Source: Bradyrhizobium sp. AZCC 2176
GTDB lineage: Bacteria > Pseudomonadota > Alphaproteobacteria > Rhizobiales > Xanthobacteraceae
Reading direction: 5' to 3'
DNA length: 64,000 bases
Assembly: GCF_036924645.1 (NCBI RefSeq)
Contig: NZ_JAZHRX010000001.1
Span: 5,607,501 to 5,671,500, forward strand
Shown here: positions 2,350 to 44,300 of the stretch, piece after piece
How positions within the stretch are numbered: position 1 is the first letter of the stretch
Layout of the letters: each line of letters starts with the position of its first letter
Translations under genes and position numbers: made by a program
The notes under the pieces: generated by a model
The model's input: the letters and a program-made list of their open reading frames with translations, nothing else
Told to the model about the DNA's origin: nothing
Database searches by the model: none

Positions 2350-3049
2350 ATGGCCGAGGAGGCGGAAGACGTACCAGTTATTTATCTCCACGAGATAAAA
2401 CGCGAGTACAGGCAGGGCGAGGCGACGCTGACCATTCTCAACGGCGCCAAGCTCGCGCTGTGGGCCGGGCAGTCGGTGGCGCTGGTGGCGCCGTCGGGGT
2501 CGGGTAAATCGACGCTGCTGCATATCGCCGGCCTGCTCGAAAGCCCCGACGACGGCGAGGTCTATGTCGCGGGCACGCCGACGTCGCAATTGTCCGATAT
2601 CGACCGCACCCAGATTCGCCGCTCCGACATCGGCTTCGTCTATCAGTCGCACCGGCTGCTGCCGGAATTCACCGCGCTTGAAAACGTCATGCTGCCGCAG
2701 ATGATCCGCGGGCTCAAACGTTCCGAGACGATCAAGCGCTCGGAGGAGATCCTGGCCTATCTCGGCCTCGGCGATCGCGTCACGCACCGGCCGGCCGAAC
2801 TCTCCGGCGGCGAGCAGCAGCGCGTCGCCATCGCGCGTGCGGTTGCCAATGCGCCGCGCGCGCTATTGGCCGACGAGCCGACCGGAAACCTCGATCCGCA
2901 CACCGCCGATCACGTGTTCAAGGCGCTGATGCAACTTGTGAAGGCGACGCAGGTTGCGATGCTGATCGCCACCCATAATATGGAACTGGCCGGCCGGATG
3001 GACCGGGCGGGTGTCGCTGGTTGACGGCCAGGTCGTCGAACTGGAATAG
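2350..3049 (+). CDS. lolD: Lipoprotein-releasing ABC transporter ATP-binding protein LolD, frameshifted near C-terminus
   Basis: ATPase of the LolCDE complex. Walker A ([11 protein letters not shown]), signature ([16 protein letters not shown]), Walker B ([11 protein letters not shown]) and the switch His (ATHN) are all present. In the sequence as given the frame stops at 3024 with the odd tail MDRAGVAG. Removing one G from the GGG run at 3005-3007 restores the family ending [16 protein letters not shown] and a TAG stop at 3047-3049, which is the end used here. The shift lies after all catalytic motifs, so the product could work even if it is real. A single-base sequencing insertion is the simplest explanation. 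The gene follows lolC/E by 7 bp. Confidence 0.9.
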
Positions 3050-3075
3050 CGCGTGGTCGGGCTTTTCCTCGCGAA

Positions 3076-3093
3076 AAACGCGGAAACGCGTTT
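3076..3093. terminator. Hairpin between convergent lolD and DUF3551 gene
   Basis: Perfect 7-bp stem AAACGCG/CGCGTTT with a GAAA loop. It is followed by TTT on the plus strand, and the minus strand reads into TTTTTCGCG after the stem. It lies between two converging genes, so it probably acts in both directions. Confidence 0.5.
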
Positions 3094-3127
3094 GCGCGGT
3101 GATCTTGCTCAACCAAAGAAGAAACGC

Positions 3128-3394
3128 TCAGTAGCCGTTGCGGTACCGCTTGTAGCGGCGTGCCGACGGGTCTTGAGATGCATGTGCGAAATAGGGATTG
3201 AGTATGCATTGCGCCGCGCGGCCCGACGCCGACATGTTGCATTGAGGCAGGGAGGTATAGCTGCATTCGTAATAGTTGATCCTGCCATAAACATGCAGGC
3301 AAACCGGATAATTGGGATCGTAAGTCTGTGCCTGCGCCGGTGCCGCTGCCGAGGCCGCTCCGATTGCCAAAATTGCCACAGCCAGAATGCGCAT
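3128..3394 (-). CDS. Secreted DUF3551-family protein
   Basis: Small exported protein of 88 residues with an N-terminal signal peptide (hydrophobic residues about 3-20, likely cleavage after AQA at 22). The mature part carries four cysteines in the pattern YPxCL..C(S/T)xxxxC..ASGRxxxC..NPY(F/Y), shared with the neighbour at 3539-3832. This matches DUF3551, a family abundant in Bradyrhizobium and of unknown function. Four cysteines in a periplasmic protein suggest two disulfides (inference). It converges on lolD, with a hairpin at 3076-3093 between them. Confidence 0.8.
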   Translation of the reverse strand: MRILAVAILAIGAASAAAPAQAQTYDPNYPVCLHVYGRINYYECSYTSLPQCNMSASGRAAQCILNPYFAHASQDPSARRYKRYRNGY

Positions 3395-3538
3395 CAGAAT
3401 CTCCTTCGGGATTGGCGGCTGCGATCGGTCCAGATCCGCCCTTCAGTCACTAACCAGACGATCCACCCATGTCCGCGTCAAATCACGTTCGCGCGTTGGA
3501 TGTTTCTTCGCGTCCGCACAATTGCGCACGCGGGCTGC

Positions 3539-3832
3539 TCAGTATCTGCCGTAGCCGGGGGCAGGCGGCAGCGCGCGGCCAGGCAGCGGGCGATACGCGG
3601 TCGGCGGCGGTTCGCGCTCGCCGATATAATAGGGATTGGCGATGCAGGTGAGAAAACGTCCCGAAGCCGTCGCCTGGCATTGCTCGTAACTCGTGAAAGT
3701 GCAGTGGCTCAGCCCCGGATACTCGTCTCCCTGAAGGCAGAACGGATATCGGGTGCCGACCGCTTCGGCAGGCGCGGCGCCGAGTGCGGCCAATCCACTC
3801 GCGGCCAGCACGGCTAGAATCGCTTTACGCAT
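3539..3832 (-). CDS. Secreted DUF3551-family protein, paralogue of its downstream neighbour
   Basis: 97-residue exported protein, second member of a tandem DUF3551 pair. The start at 3832 is chosen because the minus strand shows AGGAG a few bases before this ATG; a longer frame opening at 3862 lacks this. The signal peptide is about [24 protein letters not shown]. The four-cysteine ASGR core is conserved with the 3128-3394 protein, but the tail differs, being proline- and tyrosine-rich (PPPTAYRPLPG, PAPGYGRY). The 144-bp gap to the next gene leaves co-transcription possible. Function is unknown; the pair looks like a local duplication with divergence. Confidence 0.8.
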   Translation of the reverse strand: MRKAILAVLAASGLAALGAAPAEAVGTRYPFCLQGDEYPGLSHCTFTSYEQCQATASGRFLTCIANPYYIGEREPPPTAYRPLPGRALPPAPGYGRY

Positions 3833-4102: not shown

Positions 4103-4852
4103 ATGAAGAAGGTTTTGCTTGTTACGGCCAGTCTGATCGCGCTCGGCGCGACTGCGCCGGCTGTTGCTGCGGATCTCGCTGCGCGTCCTTACACCAAGGC
4201 GCCTCCGATGATCGCCGCTCTGTATGACTGGAGCGGATTCTACATCGGCGCCAACGGCGGTTGGGGTTCGAGCCGTAACTGCTGGGACTTCCTGCCGGTT
4301 GCCGGCGGCGTTGCTTCCGATGGTTGCCATGACGCGTCGGGCGGCACAATCGGTGGCCAGATCGGCTATCGGTGGCAGGCCGGCACTTGGGTGTTCGGCG
4401 TTGAAGCGCAGGGCAACTGGGCCGACTTCGAGGGCAGCAATGTGGCTCTGTCCGATCCGAGGTTCCGCAACGAGTCGCGGATCGACGCGTTCGGCCTGTT
4501 CACTGGCCAAGTCGGTTACGCCGCCAACAATGTCCTGTTCTACGTCAAGGGCGGCGCGGCTGTGACCTCGAACGAGTACCGTGCGTTTGCGGTCGCCACC
4601 AACACGCTCGCTGGCACCACCAACGACGACACCCGCTGGGGTGGCGTGGTCGGCGTCGGCCTCGAATACGGCTTCGCTCCGAACTGGTCGGTTGGCGTCG
4701 AGTACAATCACCTGTTCATGCAGGACCGTACCTACACCTTCACCAACCCGGCTGGCGGCTTCTTCGCCAACGAACGCATCAGTCAGGACGTCGATCTCGT
4801 CACGGCCCGCCTGAACTACAAGTTCGGCGGCCCGGTCGTCGCGAAGTACTGA
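4103..4852 (+). CDS. Outer-membrane beta-barrel protein (Omp25/RopB-like porin family)
   Basis: 249-residue outer-membrane protein. A signal peptide (MKKVLLVTASLIALGATAP, cleavage after VAA) is followed by the family opening DWSGFYIGANGGWG. Glycine- and aromatic-rich alternating strands follow, such as GGQIGYRWQAGTWVFGVEAQ, and the C-terminal strand is LVTARLNYKFGGP. This is the rhizobial Omp25/Omp31/RopB type, an eight-stranded barrel with a structural or host-surface role. It is monocistronic, with a strong intrinsic terminator at 4880-4909. I could not assign a confident promoter in the 270 bp upstream, which otherwise holds nothing I recognise. Confidence 0.88.
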   Translation: MKKVLLVTASLIALGATAPAVAADLAARPYTKAPPMIAALYDWSGFYIGANGGWGSSRNCWDFLPVAGGVASDGCHDASGGTIGGQIGYRWQAGTWVFGVEAQGNWADFEGSNVALSDPRFRNESRIDAFGLFTGQVGYAANNVLFYVKGGAAVTSNEYRAFAVATNTLAGTTNDDTRWGGVVGVGLEYGFAPNWSVGVEYNHLFMQDRTYTFTNPAGGFFANERISQDVDLVTARLNYKFGGPVVAKY

Positions 4853-4879
4853 TCTCGCGCGAAGTTTGCGAAAACAGAG

Positions 4880-4909
4880 AAGCCCCGGGCGCTGTCCCGG
4901 GGCTTTTTT
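4880..4909 (+). terminator. Rho-independent terminator of the outer-membrane protein gene
   Basis: Perfect 10-bp stem AAGCCCCGGG / CCCGGGGCTT with a 6-base loop, followed directly by a run of six T. It begins 27 bp after the stop codon and is the clearest intrinsic terminator in the window. Confidence 0.9.
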
Positions 4910-5046
4910 GGTTGAGGCCGGGCCCGGTTAGCCATCGCGAATGTGTCCGCGAAAGCTGTTCTGCCGCCCCTTGGGTAGTGGGTCAGTTTGATTCTGGCAG
5001 GTTTCCGGGACTGGAAAACGGGCGGTTCCAGGCGCATATTTCGCGG

Positions 5047-5253
5047 ATGGCGACAATTGTTCAATGCAATTGCGGCGCCGAGTACAGACGCACTGAAGAG
5101 AAGTTCTTGGTACCGCAAACGGGTGACGCGGTCTGCGCAATCTGCGGCGCTGCGCTGGAATCGTGGTTGGAGTCCACCCACGTTCCCTCATACGAACTTA
5201 TTGAACGTCCACAGACCGAAGGTCGGCAGGACAAGCCGCCCGAAGCGCCGTAG
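5047..5253 (+). CDS. Small zinc-ribbon-like protein of unknown function
   Basis: 68-residue cytoplasmic protein starting MATIVQCNCGAEYRRTEEKF. A CxC pair near the N-terminus and a CAIC pair about 30 residues later look like the two knuckles of a zinc ribbon. The C-terminus is acidic and proline-rich. The start is set at the internal ATG because upstream codons of the longer frame (from 4912) overlap the terminator region and do not look coding. I do not recognise a named family; small proteins of this kind are common in Bradyrhizobium. Confidence 0.65.
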   Translation: MATIVQCNCGAEYRRTEEKFLVPQTGDAVCAICGAALESWLESTHVPSYELIERPQTEGRQDKPPEAP

Positions 5254-5319
5254 GGCGAGTCTCGTTAACTAAGCGAAACATTTCGGGGTCACTTCTCAAA
5301 CCTGACCCGCTGCGGACGC

Positions 5320-5347
5320 TTGACTCCAGGAACAAAAAAGGAACAAT
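5320..5347 (+). promoter_or_regulatory. Predicted sigma-70-type promoter of the SOS microprotein
   Basis: TTGACT (5320-5325, five of six to TTGACA), a 16-bp spacer and AACAAT (5342-5347, four of six to TATAAT). The spacer and -10 lie inside the LexA operator at 5330-5362, so bound LexA would block RNA polymerase. Position and overlap are seen; activity is inferred. Confidence 0.5.
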
Positions 5348-5362
5348 GTTCCTCATATGTTC
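5330..5362. promoter_or_regulatory. Double LexA operator (two inverted alphaproteobacterial SOS boxes)
   Basis: Two complete boxes lie back to back. The first is GAAC-N7-GAAC at 5330-5344, which is a minus-strand GTTC-N7-GTTC. The second is GTTC-N7-GTTC at 5348-5362, three bases later. The four half-sites start at 5330, 5341, 5348 and 5359. GTTC-N7-GTTC is the established LexA-binding consensus of alphaproteobacteria, and the same motif occurs upstream of lexA in this window (44286-44300). Confidence 0.8.
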
Positions 5363-5381
5363 TCAAATGTGGAGTCGGACC

Positions 5382-5480
5382 ATGTTGCGGATGTTCGTGG
5401 AAGAGGCGGCGGCGCTGGCGTCGATTGCGCTGTTTGTCGGGATGATCGCGGTCTGGGCGCAGGTGATTCCCCAGCTTTGA
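5382..5480 (+). CDS. 32-residue single-pass membrane microprotein under LexA control (SidA-like candidate)
   Basis: A short frame begins MLRMFVEEAA and ends AVWAQVIPQL before TGA at 5478. It has a short charged N-terminus (one Arg, two Glu) followed by about 22 hydrophobic residues, enough for one membrane helix. GGAG at 5371-5374 is a suitably placed ribosome binding site. Directly upstream are a promoter and two LexA boxes. In Caulobacter, SidA is a 29-residue SOS-induced inner-membrane protein that stops division through FtsW/FtsN. Size, topology and control agree with a protein of that kind, but homology is not shown. dnaE begins 186 bp downstream on the same strand. Alternative: a small stress membrane protein unrelated to SidA. 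Confidence 0.7.
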   Translation: MLRMFVEEAAALASIALFVGMIAVWAQVIPQL

Positions 5481-5539
5481 TGTGCGGGCAGATCCGACCT
5501 CGATACGTCCCAGCGGACGGGTTGGGGAAAAGCCGGATG

Positions 5540-5556
5540 GCGGGCGCTGAGCCCGC
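5540..5556 (+). terminator. GC-rich hairpin between microprotein and dnaE
   Basis: Stem GCGGGC/GCCCGC with a 5-base loop, no clear T-run. It may weaken read-through from the SOS promoter into dnaE. The rest of 5481-5666 shows nothing else I recognise. Confidence 0.3.
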
Positions 5557-5666
5557 GTTCCGCGTGGACTCGGCGAAGCTGAGGCATCACCATTGCGGTG
5601 CGAGTCGGCACGCATCAGCGGCCGATGATCGCTCCCCGCCATGATGCAAGAGCCCGTTAAGCGACC

Positions 5667-8600
5667 ATGTCCAGTGCCGGATTCGTTCATCTCCACGTTC
5701 ATTCGGCCTATTCGCTGCTGAAGGGCTCCATCAAGATCGCCAAGCTCGGCGAACTGGCCAAGGCCGACCGCCAGCCGGCGCTGGCGCTGACCGACACCGA
5801 CAACATGTTCGGGGCGCTGGAATTCTCCGACAAGATGGCGGGCTACGGCATCCAGCCGATCGTCGGCTGCGAGCTCGCGGTCGATTTCGGCGACCAGGAT
5901 CCGAACGCGCGCAATGCGCTGGCCGCGACGCCATCGCGAATCGTGTTGCTGGCGGCGCGCGAGCGCGGTTACCGCAGCCTGATGCGGCTGAACTCGCGGG
6001 CGTTTCTGGAAACGCCGGTGCATCAATCCCCGCATATCAAGCTCGAATGGCTGGAAGGCGACGCCGAGGATCTGATCGCGCTGACCGGCGGCCCCGACGG
6101 GCCGATCTCGCTGGCGCTGCATGCCGATCACGCAGCTCTTGCGAGCGCCCGTTGCGAGCGGCTTGCGAGCCTGTTCGGCGATCGCCTCTATATCGAATTG
6201 CAGCGCCACGGCATCGACAAGGAGCGCCGCACCGAAACCGGCCTGATCGATCTCGCCTATGCCAAGGGATTGCCGCTGGTCGCGACCAACGAGCCATATT
6301 TCGCATCGAATGACGATTACGAAGCCCACGACGCGCTGCTCTGCATCGCCGGCGGCAAGTTGATCGCCGAGACCGACCGCGAGCAGCTCACGCCCGATCA
6401 CCGCTTCAAGACCCGCGCCGAGATGGCGGTGCTGTTTGCCGACATTCCGGAAGCGCTGGCCTCTACTGTCGAGATTGCGGAGCGCTGTTCGTTTCGCCCG
6501 AAGACGCGAAAGCCGATCCTGCCGCGCTTCACGGTCGGCGCCGGCTCAGGCTCTGACGCGGCAAGCGAGGAGGCCGGGGAGCTGAAGCGCCAGGCCGAGG
6601 AGGGGCTCGCCAGGCGCCTGCAGGTTCATGGCCTGTCGCCCGGCACAACGGAAGAGGAGTACCAGAATCGTCTCGCCTTCGAGATCGACGTCATCAACCG
6701 CATGAACTATGCGGGCTACTTCCTGATCGTGTCGGACTTCATCAAATGGGCCAAGGCCCACGACATTCCGGTCGGTCCCGGCCGCGGTTCCGGCGCCGGT
6801 TCGCTGGTCGCCTATTCGCTGACCATCACTGACCTCGATCCGATTCGTTTTGGCTTGCTGTTCGAGCGCTTCCTCAATCCCGAGCGCGTCTCGATGCCGG
6901 ACTTCGACATCGACTTCTGCCAGGACCGCCGCGGCGAGGTGATCGATTACGTGCAGCAGCGCTACGGCCGCGATCAGGTCGCGCAGATCATCACCTTCGG
7001 AACGCTGCAGGCGCGCGGCGTGCTGCGCGACGTCGGCCGTGTCCTGCAGATGCCGTATGGCCAGGTCGACAAGCTGACAAAACTGGTGCCGCAAAATCCG
7101 GCCGCACCGGTGACGCTGGCGCAGGCGATCGAGAGCGAGCCCAAGCTGCAGGCGTTCCGCGACGAGGATCCGGTGGTGGCGCGCGCCTTCGACATCGCCC
7201 AGCGCCTCGAAGGCCTGACGCGCCACGCCTCGACCCACGCGGCCGGCATCGTGATCGGGGACCGCCCGTTGAGCGAACTGGTGCCGCTCTACCGCGATCC
7301 CAAATCCGACATGCCGGTGACCCAGTTCAACATGAAATGGGTCGAGCCGGCCGGGCTGGTGAAATTCGACTTCCTCGGCCTGAAAACGCTGACCGTCCTC
7401 GACGTCGCGGTAAAACTGCTCAGGCAGCGCAACATCCAGGTCGATCTGGCGACGCTGCCGATCGACGATGCGCCGAGTTACCAGATGCTGGCGCGCGGCG
7501 ACGTGGTCGGCGTGTTCCAGGTGGAAAGCCAGGGCATGCGGCGCGCGCTGATCGACATGCGGCCCGACCGCTTCGAGGACATCATCGCGCTGGTGGCGCT
7601 CTATCGCCCGGGCCCGATGGCCAACATCCCGACCTATTGCGCGCGCAAGCATGGCGACGAGGAGCCGGAATATCTGCACCCGATCCTGGAGCCGATCCTG
7701 AAGGAGACGTTCGGCGTCATCATCTACCAGGAACAGGTGATGCAGATCGCGCAGGTGATGGCCGGCTATTCGCTCGGCGACGCCGACCTGCTGCGCCGCG
7801 CGATGGGCAAGAAGATCCGCGCCGAAATGGAAAAGCAGCGCGCGGTGTTCGTCGCCGGCGCGGTCAAGAACGGCGTGCCGAAGGGGCAGGCCGACACGAT
7901 CTTCGAACTGCTCGCAAAATTCGCCGACTACGGCTTCAACAAGAGCCACGCCGCGGCTTACGCGCTGGTGTCTTATCACACCGCCTACATGAAGGCGCAT
8001 TACCCGGTGGAGTTTTTGGCCGCGTCGATGACGCTCGAACTCAACAACACCGACAAGCTCTCGGAATTTCGCGCCGAGGCGCAGCGGCTCGGCATCAAGG
8101 TCGAGGCGCCGAACATCAACCGTTCCGGCGCCACCTTCGAGGTCGGCGAAAATACGATCTATTACGCACTCGCTGCGCTCAAGGGCGTCGGCCCGCAGGC
8201 GGTGGAGTTGATCGTGGAAGAGCGGAAGAAGGGCGCCTTCACCTCGCTCGCGGACTTCGCGGCGCGGGTCAATCCGCGTGCCATCAACAAGCGCGTGATC
8301 GAAAGCTTGGCGGCCGCCGGCGCCTTCGACACGCTCGACTCGAATCGCGCGCGGGTCTTTGCCGGCGCCGATGCCATTCTCGCCGCCTGCCAGCGCAGCC
8401 ACGAAGCCGCAACGATCGGTCAGAACGACATGTTCGGCAATGCGTCCGACGCGCCGACCATCATGCTGCCGCAGATCGAGCCGTGGCTGCCGGCGGAGCG
8501 GCTGCGGCGCGAATACGACGCCATCGGCTTCTTCCTGTCAGGCCATCCGCTCGACGACTACGCGACCGTGCTGAAGCGGCTGCGGGTGCAGTCCTGGGCG

Positions 8601-9173
8601 GAATTCTCACGCGCCGTGAAGACCGGCGCGACGGCGGGGAGGGTCGCCGCGACCGTGGTGTCGCGGATGGAGCGGCGCACCAAGACCGGCAACAAGATGG
8701 GCATCATGGGGCTATCAGATCCGACCGGTCATTTCGAAGCCGTGCTGTTTTCCGAAGGCCTTGCGCAATATCGCGACGTATTGGAGCCAGGGGCTGCCGT
8801 ATTGCTGCAGCTCGGCGCCGAACTGCAGGGCGAAGATGTGCGCGCCCGGGTGCTGCATGCCGAGCCGCTGGACGACGCCGCCGCCAAGACGCAAAAGGGC
8901 CTGCGTATTTTCGTGCGCGACACCAAGCCGCTCGAATCGATCGCGCGACGGCTCAACATGCCGGAAGCCGCGCCAAACGGTGCGGCAAAGGGCCTGCCGG
9001 CGAAGCCCGCGCCCGCGCCATCGGGTGGTGCCGATGGCGACGTCTCGCTCGTCATGATGCTCGACCTCCAGACCGAGGTGGAGATGAAGCTGCCGGGCCG
9101 CTTCAAGGTCTCGCCGCAGATCGCCGGTGCGATCAAGGCGGTGGCCGGCGTGGTGGACGTGCAGACGCTATAG
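5667..9173 (+). CDS. dnaE: DNA polymerase III subunit alpha, replicative type
   Basis: 1168-residue catalytic subunit of the replicase. An N-terminal PHP domain opens with HLHVHSAYSLLKGS (residues 8-21). The palm carries PDFDIDFCQD near residue 411 and VKFDFLGLKT near 567, which supply the three catalytic aspartates. GPGRGSGAGSLVAYSL and RPGPM.NIPTYCARKHG are typical C-family motifs. Tandem helix-hairpin-helix and an OB-fold follow in the C-terminal 350 residues. Length and motifs fit DnaE1 rather than the shorter mutagenic DnaE2/ImuC, and no imuA/imuB is nearby. An SOS-controlled microprotein lies 186 bp upstream on the same strand, so some SOS-induced transcription could read into dnaE. The ribosome binding site is weak. 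Confidence 0.97.
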   Translation: MSSAGFVHLHVHSAYSLLKGSIKIAKLGELAKADRQPALALTDTDNMFGALEFSDKMAGYGIQPIVGCELAVDFGDQDPNARNALAATPSRIVLLAARERGYRSLMRLNSRAFLETPVHQSPHIKLEWLEGDAEDLIALTGGPDGPISLALHADHAALASARCERLASLFGDRLYIELQRHGIDKERRTETGLIDLAYAKGLPLVATNEPYFASNDDYEAHDALLCIAGGKLIAETDREQLTPDHRFKTRAEMAVLFADIPEALASTVEIAERCSFRPKTRKPILPRFTVGAGSGSDAASEEAGELKRQAEEGLARRLQVHGLSPGTTEEEYQNRLAFEIDVINRMNYAGYFLIVSDFIKWAKAHDIPVGPGRGSGAGSLVAYSLTITDLDPIRFGLLFERFLNPERVSMPDFDIDFCQDRRGEVIDYVQQRYGRDQVAQIITFGTLQARGVLRDVGRVLQMPYGQVDKLTKLVPQNPAAPVTLAQAIESEPKLQAFRDEDPVVARAFDIAQRLEGLTRHASTHAAGIVIGDRPLSELVPLYRDPKSDMPVTQFNMKWVEPAGLVKFDFLGLKTLTVLDVAVKLLRQRNIQVDLATLPIDDAPSYQMLARGDVVGVFQVESQGMRRALIDMRPDRFEDIIALVALYRPGPMANIPTYCARKHGDEEPEYLHPILEPILKETFGVIIYQEQVMQIAQVMAGYSLGDADLLRRAMGKKIRAEMEKQRAVFVAGAVKNGVPKGQADTIFELLAKFADYGFNKSHAAAYALVSYHTAYMKAHYPVEFLAASMTLELNNTDKLSEFRAEAQRLGIKVEAPNINRSGATFEVGENTIYYALAALKGVGPQAVELIVEERKKGAFTSLADFAARVNPRAINKRVIESLAAAGAFDTLDSNRARVFAGADAILAACQRSHEAATIGQNDMFGNASDAPTIMLPQIEPWLPAERLRREYDAIGFFLSGHPLDDYATVLKRLRVQSWAEFSRAVKTGATAGRVAATVVSRMERRTKTGNKMGIMGLSDPTGHFEAVLFSEGLAQYRDVLEPGAAVLLQLGAELQGEDVRARVLHAEPLDDAAAKTQKGLRIFVRDTKPLESIARRLNMPEAAPNGAAKGLPAKPAPAPSGGADGDVSLVMMLDLQTEVEMKLPGRFKVSPQIAGAIKAVAGVVDVQTL

Positions 9174-43458: not shown

Positions 43459-44161
43459 TCAATACTTCCGGTACAGCCCGATCAGCTTGCCCTGAATCCG
43501 GACCCGGGTTCGGCGGCAGGATGCGCACTTCATAGGCGGCATTGGCGGGCTCGAGCGCAATCGAGGCGCCGCGGCGGCGGAAGCGTTTTAGCGTGGCTTC
43601 CTCCTCGTCGATCAGCGCCACCACGATGTCGCCGGTGTCGGCGGTCTCGTTGCGCTGGATCAGCGCCATGTCGCCATCGAGAATGCCGGCGTCGACCATG
43701 GAATCGCCGCGCACTTCGAGCGCGTAGTGCTCGCCGGAGCCAAGCATGTCGGGCGGCACGCTGATGGTGTGGCTGCGGGTCTGCAGCGCCTCGATCGGGG
43801 TGCCGGCGGCGATCCGGCCCATCACGGGGACGGCGACCGGGCGGTTGCCGTCGTCCTCGGCGGCCGGCGCGCTCACGGAGCGTTTGCCGAGCGTGCCTTC
43901 GATAACGCTCGGCGTGAAGCCGCGGCGGCCGTTGCCGGCGGCAGCCAGCTCCGGCAGCTTGATGACTTCGATGGCGCGGGCGCGGTTGGGCAGGCGGCGG
44001 ATGAAGCCGCGCTCCTCCAGCGCCGTAATGAGGCGGTGGATTCCGGACTTCGAACGCAGGTCGAGCGCGTCCTTCATCTCGTCGAAGGAGGGCGGTACGC
44101 CGGCCTCTTTCAGCCGTTCATTGATGAAACGCAGAAGTTCATACTGTTTGCGCGTAAGCAT
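43459..44161 (-). CDS. lexA: SOS repressor LexA, frameshifted near C-terminus
   Basis: Master repressor of the DNA-damage response; RecA-stimulated self-cleavage switches the regulon on. A winged helix-turn-helix ([38 protein letters not shown]) precedes a peptidase S24 domain with catalytic Ser ([14 protein letters not shown]) and Lys ([13 protein letters not shown]). As given, the frame runs on to 43367 with an unrelated tail after YEVRILPPN. Dropping one G from the plus-strand run 43506-43508 restores the family ending [15 protein letters not shown] and a stop at 43459-43461. Catalytic residues precede the shift. A LexA box at 44286-44300 indicates autoregulation. Confidence 0.92.
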
Positions 44162-44285: not shown

Positions 44286-44300
44286 GTTCGATATGTGTTC
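44286..44300. promoter_or_regulatory. LexA box upstream of lexA
   Basis: GTTC-GATATGT-GTTC, a perfect GTTC-N7-GTTC alphaproteobacterial SOS box about 125 bp before the lexA start codon. It implies autorepression and gives an internal standard for the double operator at 5330-5362. Confidence 0.8.

Follow-up and report, generated by a model that had tools for sequence, protein, structure and literature searches.

A candidate LexA-controlled, SidA-type membrane microprotein gene upstream of dnaE in Bradyrhizobium

According to published work, SidA of Caulobacter (CCNA_02004; PMC10769358) has 29 residues, sits in the inner membrane and interacts with FtsW, as well as with FtsN in two-hybrid tests; its lethality is reportedly suppressed by ftsW or ftsI mutations, and the model put forward is that SidA promotes an inactive state of FtsW/I/N, with Z-ring assembly unhindered (PMC4211646). 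The gene is reported as an early SOS gene, and GTTCN7GTTC as the Caulobacter LexA motif (PMC12700426). DidA, a damage-induced single-helix division inhibitor of Caulobacter described as acting on FtsW/I/N (PMC4211646), is unlike SidA in having 71 residues and in being DriD-controlled and SOS-independent, without LexA control. YneA of Bacillus subtilis, which belongs to another phylum and is likened here by description alone, is an SOS-induced membrane division inhibitor with a reported FtsW interaction (PMC13396833). TisB and DinQ of Escherichia coli are also tiny SOS-controlled membrane peptides but are described as membrane-active toxins, DinQ being under antisense RNA control (PMC3567139, PMC8145889). 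Among the papers listed, titles and abstract openings describe no rhizobial SidA, and an earlier mention is possible. To our knowledge, for most alphaproteobacteria other than Caulobacter no protein has been established as the one that halts division in the SOS response.

The window (the whole stretch of 64,000 nucleotides from Bradyrhizobium sp. AZCC 2176 that was analysed) holds a short frame whose product resembles SidA in being tiny and single-helix, and whose gene resembles sidA in carrying LexA boxes and lying directly upstream of dnaE. It differs in its double palindromic operator, in its failure to match the SidA model NF033228, and in a sequence similarity that is weak but above decoys. 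The product has 32 residues against the 29 of SidA, with a conserved W25 and a PQL-type tail in its genus. We consider it likely that this gene, which is unannotated, encodes a divergent cell-division checkpoint protein of the SidA type.

The microprotein gene and its operator

Reading of the sequence and comparison of the locus with its relatives established the promoter anatomy, the conservation and the relatedness of the microprotein. The features of the locus are as follows.

5320-5325, plus strand: TTGACT, putative -35 element, the sole promoter-like site in 4850-5800 (0.2 expected)
5330-5344, minus strand: LexA box 1, GTTCCTTTTTTGTTC as minus-strand reading, an exact match to GTTCN7GTTC
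5342-5347, plus strand: AACAAT, possible -10 element within the operator, weak and from a consensus scan alone
5348-5362, plus strand: LexA box 2, GTTCCTCATATGTTC, an exact match to GTTCN7GTTC
5371-5374, plus strand: GGAG, ribosome-binding site by direct reading, 7 nt ahead of the ATG
5382-5480, plus strand: gene of the SidA-like 32-residue membrane microprotein, a 99-bp frame with the stop codon included
5667-9173, plus strand: dnaE, replicative DNA polymerase III alpha subunit (Pfam PF07733, PF17657, PF02811, PF14579)

The first-pass annotation had described a short frame with a ribosome binding site, one predicted membrane helix, two LexA boxes over the promoter and a distance of 186 bp to dnaE, and all four were recovered. 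The two exact boxes compose a 33-bp double operator (GAACAAAAAAGGAACAATGTTCCTCATATGTTC, 5330-5362), and the gap to dnaE, identified by Pfam, spans 5481-5666. In the 32-residue product (MLRMFVEEAAALASIALFVGMIAVWAQVIPQL), one hydrophobic helix follows a short N-terminal stretch whose third residue is R/K; with a maximal Kyte-Doolittle mean of 2.2 over 19 residues, this single hydrophobic segment predicts a membrane protein within the size range of SidA (about 29-32 residues with one helix). A longer start at 5346 (44 residues) was discarded, since conservation and the ribosome site both point to 5382. Just upstream of the operator, a small plus-strand frame (5047-5253) carries CxC and CxxC motifs (MATIVQCNCGAEY...VCAICGAAL) and, read by eye, looks like a small zinc-ribbon protein. 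The spacer between microprotein and dnaE (RNA fold of 5478-5670) folds somewhat better than its shuffles (z -2.42).

The frame was found by translated search in all 35 other genomes of the genus, with its helix retained, and so escaped the loss among close relatives that the first-pass annotation had named as refuting its SidA-like reading. Within the family, a threshold of E<=1 recovered it in 193 of 248 genomes, spread over 38 of 47 genera, with no microprotein match at that threshold in the other 55 genomes; among 24 genomes of other families, translated search recovered it in one (G054, 59% identity). In 79 related loci (L061-L139), every frame opens with ATG and encodes 31-33 residues, and the core of the ribosome site precedes the ATG in 79/79, compared with 7.4% of background 13-mers. 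Substitutions are strongly protein-like, with pN/pS of 0.14 among 40 distinct same-genus coding sequences and 0.23 among 76 family sequences, as compared to 1.5 and 7.4 for the shifted frames within the genus. Third codon positions carry 73% of the same-genus differences, and base conservation falls off directly past the stop codon. One of the 79 sequences in the selection test (L120, 31 residues) had a stop inside the 96-nt slice, where its frame ends. In 64 of the 76 family sequences the overlapping +2 frame is open as well, and its substitution ratio, 7.4 within the genus and 3.1 across the family, is not protein-like. Judged by this substitution pattern, 5382-5480 is a real gene under protein-level selection.

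Exact single LexA boxes occur genome-wide at 100 forward and 99 reverse sites, near the 85 and 75 of the reversed-pattern control, so a single box alone is unimpressive. The 7.1-Mb genome has a single instance of the composite pattern GAACN7GAACN3GTTCN7GTTC, at this locus, while the reversed control of that pattern gave 0. The full exact operator is present in 149 of 248 family genomes (one copy each except G063 and G304, with two; reversed control none) and absent in its exact double form from 99. At all 64 comparable places, that is, those with a listed microprotein match, 11 further operator places being left out, the operator lies within 160 bp of the microprotein. Among the 79 related loci, 78 have an exact LexA box, 75 have box 1 and 68 have the two boxes offset by the same 18 bp; in L091 the boxes are approximate and contain mismatches. 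TTGAC stands just upstream of box 1 in 73 of the 75 loci that have it, and the distance from the end of the operator to the ATG is usually only about 10-30 nt. The operator is thus kept in relatives, and its conserved putative boxes over the promoter point to LexA control as described for SidA. The only match to a LexA DNA-binding domain in the genome (PF01726) lies in this same window (43973-44161, minus strand), and an exact LexA box at 44286-44300 upstream of lexA would be expected to serve autoregulation.

Place beside dnaE and relatedness to SidA

Caulobacter-type genomes were located by CtrA. This gave 28 genomes at 97-100% identity, all of label g436 (other listed g436 genomes, 90-94%), and from this CtrA identity we take g436 to be Caulobacter. 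A LexA box followed by a membrane frame precedes dnaE in 17 of 18 g436 loci, sixteen of the frames having 29 residues and one (L402) 30; L401 has no exact LexA box upstream of dnaE, and several of the loci allow an alternative longer in-frame start (40 residues). The 29-residue frame of locus L390 scored 72.3 bits against NCBIfam NF033228, 'cell division inhibitor SidA' (cut-off 35), and the divergent gene on its other flank encodes an inosine-uridine nucleoside hydrolase (PF01156, E=4.6e-79). The frame of that hydrolase (2408-3631) has a possible start that runs antisense through sidA, and its Pfam match begins only at residue 91. Published labels agree, with CCNA_02005 given as an inosine-uridine preferring nucleoside hydrolase (PMC3667746), sidA as CCNA_02004 and dnaE as CC1926 (PMC1839093); together with the SidA match and the hydrolase neighbour, they place sidA between the hydrolase and dnaE. 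From offsets between the two numberings (recN being CC1983 and ccna_02062), we infer that CC1926 adjoins CCNA_02004. The first-pass annotation had suggested, as unconfirmed, that Caulobacter sidA lies near dnaE; the gene proves to lie directly upstream, LexA-boxed and with fitting neighbour labels.

In the 79 related loci, dnaE lies within 1.5 kb downstream of the microprotein on the same strand in 77, at distances of 109-1101 bp. L106 and L134 keep operator and frame, and dnaE was not found within 1.5 kb downstream; in L106, nusG occupies the downstream stretch (2165-2755). A profile search of the order gave matches in 75 of 247 genomes at E<=0.1, several of them weak and just upstream of dnaE. 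A class-wide profile search with the 18-sequence alignment (139 of 387 genomes at E<=1) included two same-genus matches (G000 and G021) and otherwise gave mostly short partial matches; as these were treated as chance, retrieval anchored on dnaE was used instead. A locus was retained if its dnaE match was preceded by 300 bp of sequence (44/45, 72/72, 78/80 and 33/33 in the order, class, named-contig and Caulobacteraceae sets, respectively), and it was scored as positive when an ATG frame of 24-45 residues with a hydrophobic segment stood within 110 bp downstream of an exact LexA box.

This arrangement was found upstream of dnaE in 40 of 44 loci of the order set, a proportion biased upward by the choice of loci through profile matches, mostly weak. 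The class-wide set, drawn from the upper part of a ranked list, gave 16 of 72 loci, or 13 of 69 without repeated genomes (L222/L273, L264/L274, L235/L275) and 12 of 68 strictly, leaving out L276, which entered after the f29 matches were known. The named-contig set, 80 loci from a query of family label f29 (chiefly alphaproteobacterial MAGs and Rhodobacterales) that shares four genomes with the class set (L293, L296, L298, L355), gave 14 of 78, of which 13 (L293-L305) belong to the MAG group of the query itself. In Caulobacteraceae (f78), 26 of 33 loci had the arrangement, these loci being the best-scoring 30 of 46 genomes searched plus three more. Among control segments it occurred in 0/227 opposite strands and 0/762 segments elsewhere. 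By this measure the arrangement extends over fifteen family labels in the order and nine outside it, and these occurrences need not all be homologous. The named Rhodobacterales loci (L308-L372, of which L339 has just 129 bp upstream) showed no exact LexA box in the 1 kb ahead of dnaE, so the arrangement may be missing from that order. A frame upstream of dnaE, which the first-pass annotation had proposed to seek in Rhizobiales and Caulobacterales, is present beside dnaE in other Rhizobiales and in Caulobacterales-like families.

The window protein (P0001) gave no match to the equivalog model NF033228 at E<=10, and so did not reach its cut-off of 35 bits; all five tested Caulobacteraceae sequences scored above the cut-off, and none of seven distinct other sequences matched. 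Pfam and NCBIfam also gave no match for the window protein. Profile-profile alignment of the window family with the Caulobacter-type family by hhalign yielded E=1.3e-4 and a probability of 54%; in a rerun, the score of 20.0 was reached by 0/300 full column shuffles and 1/300 shuffles within helix and tails. An HMM of 13 Caulobacteraceae sequences scored the window protein at 13.1 bits, a value reached by 1/3000 shuffled and 0/3000 hydrophobicity-preserving decoys, and placed 15 of 26 order sequences below the 1% decoy level, including L136 of family label f1. With the reverse HMM, built from the 26 order sequences, no more than 4 of 3000 decoys of each kind attained the real score for 9 of 13 Caulobacteraceae proteins, 1 and 6 of 3000 did so for Caulobacter SidA in L390, and L396 was lost among decoys (266 and 355 of 3000).

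The alignment with Caulobacter SidA that the first-pass annotation called for places the window protein above most shuffled decoys, a signal that, for the sequence by itself, is suggestive and gives weak support to common descent and to membership in a wider SidA family. Sequence, place, operator and length together make a strong case, and we regard it as very probable that the window protein is related to SidA. The earlier proposal of a SidA equivalent in the Bradyrhizobium lineage stands for a divergent SidA-type protein, by place, operator, helix and above-decoy relatedness, and not for a catalogued SidA, since NF033228 is blind to it.

Alternative readings

The alternative that survives best, though we judge it unlikely, is a SidA relative whose target has shifted to a different component of cell division or polar growth in Rhizobiales. 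The low similarity to SidA with no NF033228 match, the 32 rather than 29 residues, and a W25 that is invariant in the 18-sequence alignment of the window family, without a counterpart in the Caulobacter-type alignment, are consistent with such a change; against it, place, control sites and helix are all kept, which suggests the same job as SidA. SOS-controlled single-helix membrane peptides that act in another way are described in E. coli (PMC3567139, PMC8145889), and a further reading is a peptide that depolarizes the membrane in the manner of TisB or DinQ, rather than acting on the divisome. This is distinctly improbable for a microprotein related by place and sequence to a divisome inhibitor. 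The tisB gene has a long leader under antisense control, for which the 10-30 nt between operator and ATG in most loci may leave scant space.

Less probable again, and by our estimate very much so, is that the operator acts for dnaE, which the short frame would tune as a leader peptide. In 77 of 79 loci dnaE follows the microprotein in the same orientation, and the two may be co-transcribed; however, the frame is under protein-level selection (pN/pS 0.14), its spacing from dnaE is variable (109-1101 bp) rather than near-constant, and two loci keep operator and frame without dnaE in the next 1.5 kb. A chance frame next to chance LexA boxes, for which the frequency of single boxes and the open +2 frame might speak, is effectively refuted by the conservation of frame, start, ribosome site, -35 element and double operator, the substitution pattern of frame +2 and the empty control segments.

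Proposed function and significance

As a SidA-type checkpoint protein, the microprotein would be kept silent by LexA occupying its promoter through the double operator. Upon DNA damage, RecA would be activated and LexA cleaved, freeing the operator, and a short-leader mRNA would be produced from the promoter. The peptide would then insert into the inner membrane in N-in orientation, as the basic residue at position 3 suggests, and would keep the FtsW/FtsI/FtsN septal machinery inactive until the SOS response wanes. SOS induction and FtsW-mediated division arrest by the window protein are proposed by analogy with SidA, and we hold an FtsW-type mechanism to be fairly probable.

The first-pass annotation had stated that gene finders miss frames this short. 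The window gene is indeed unannotated, but databases hold relatives: 229 matches were obtained at E<=1, and the 120 listed (P0002-P0121) are unnamed or called 'hypothetical protein'. Among these 120, 113 are longer than 33 residues, in a search whose 44-residue query included 12 upstream codons and so favours longer entries; in many of the long entries the assigned start probably extends the frame into the LexA operator. The family would have stayed hidden through its length and fast sequence change, and would be traceable by place and operator.

There is a good chance that the Rhizobiales and Caulobacterales lineages share an ancestral checkpoint in the form of an SOS-controlled, SidA-type microprotein encoded upstream of dnaE, far wider than curated SidA. 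If so, it would supply an SOS division inhibitor for rhizobia and many other alphaproteobacteria, in the form of a 99-bp candidate gene hidden in many alphaproteobacterial genomes. Genomic place and operator together can bring to light microprotein families that escape profile models, and the natural variation of this microprotein would reveal which residues a septation-stalling helix requires.
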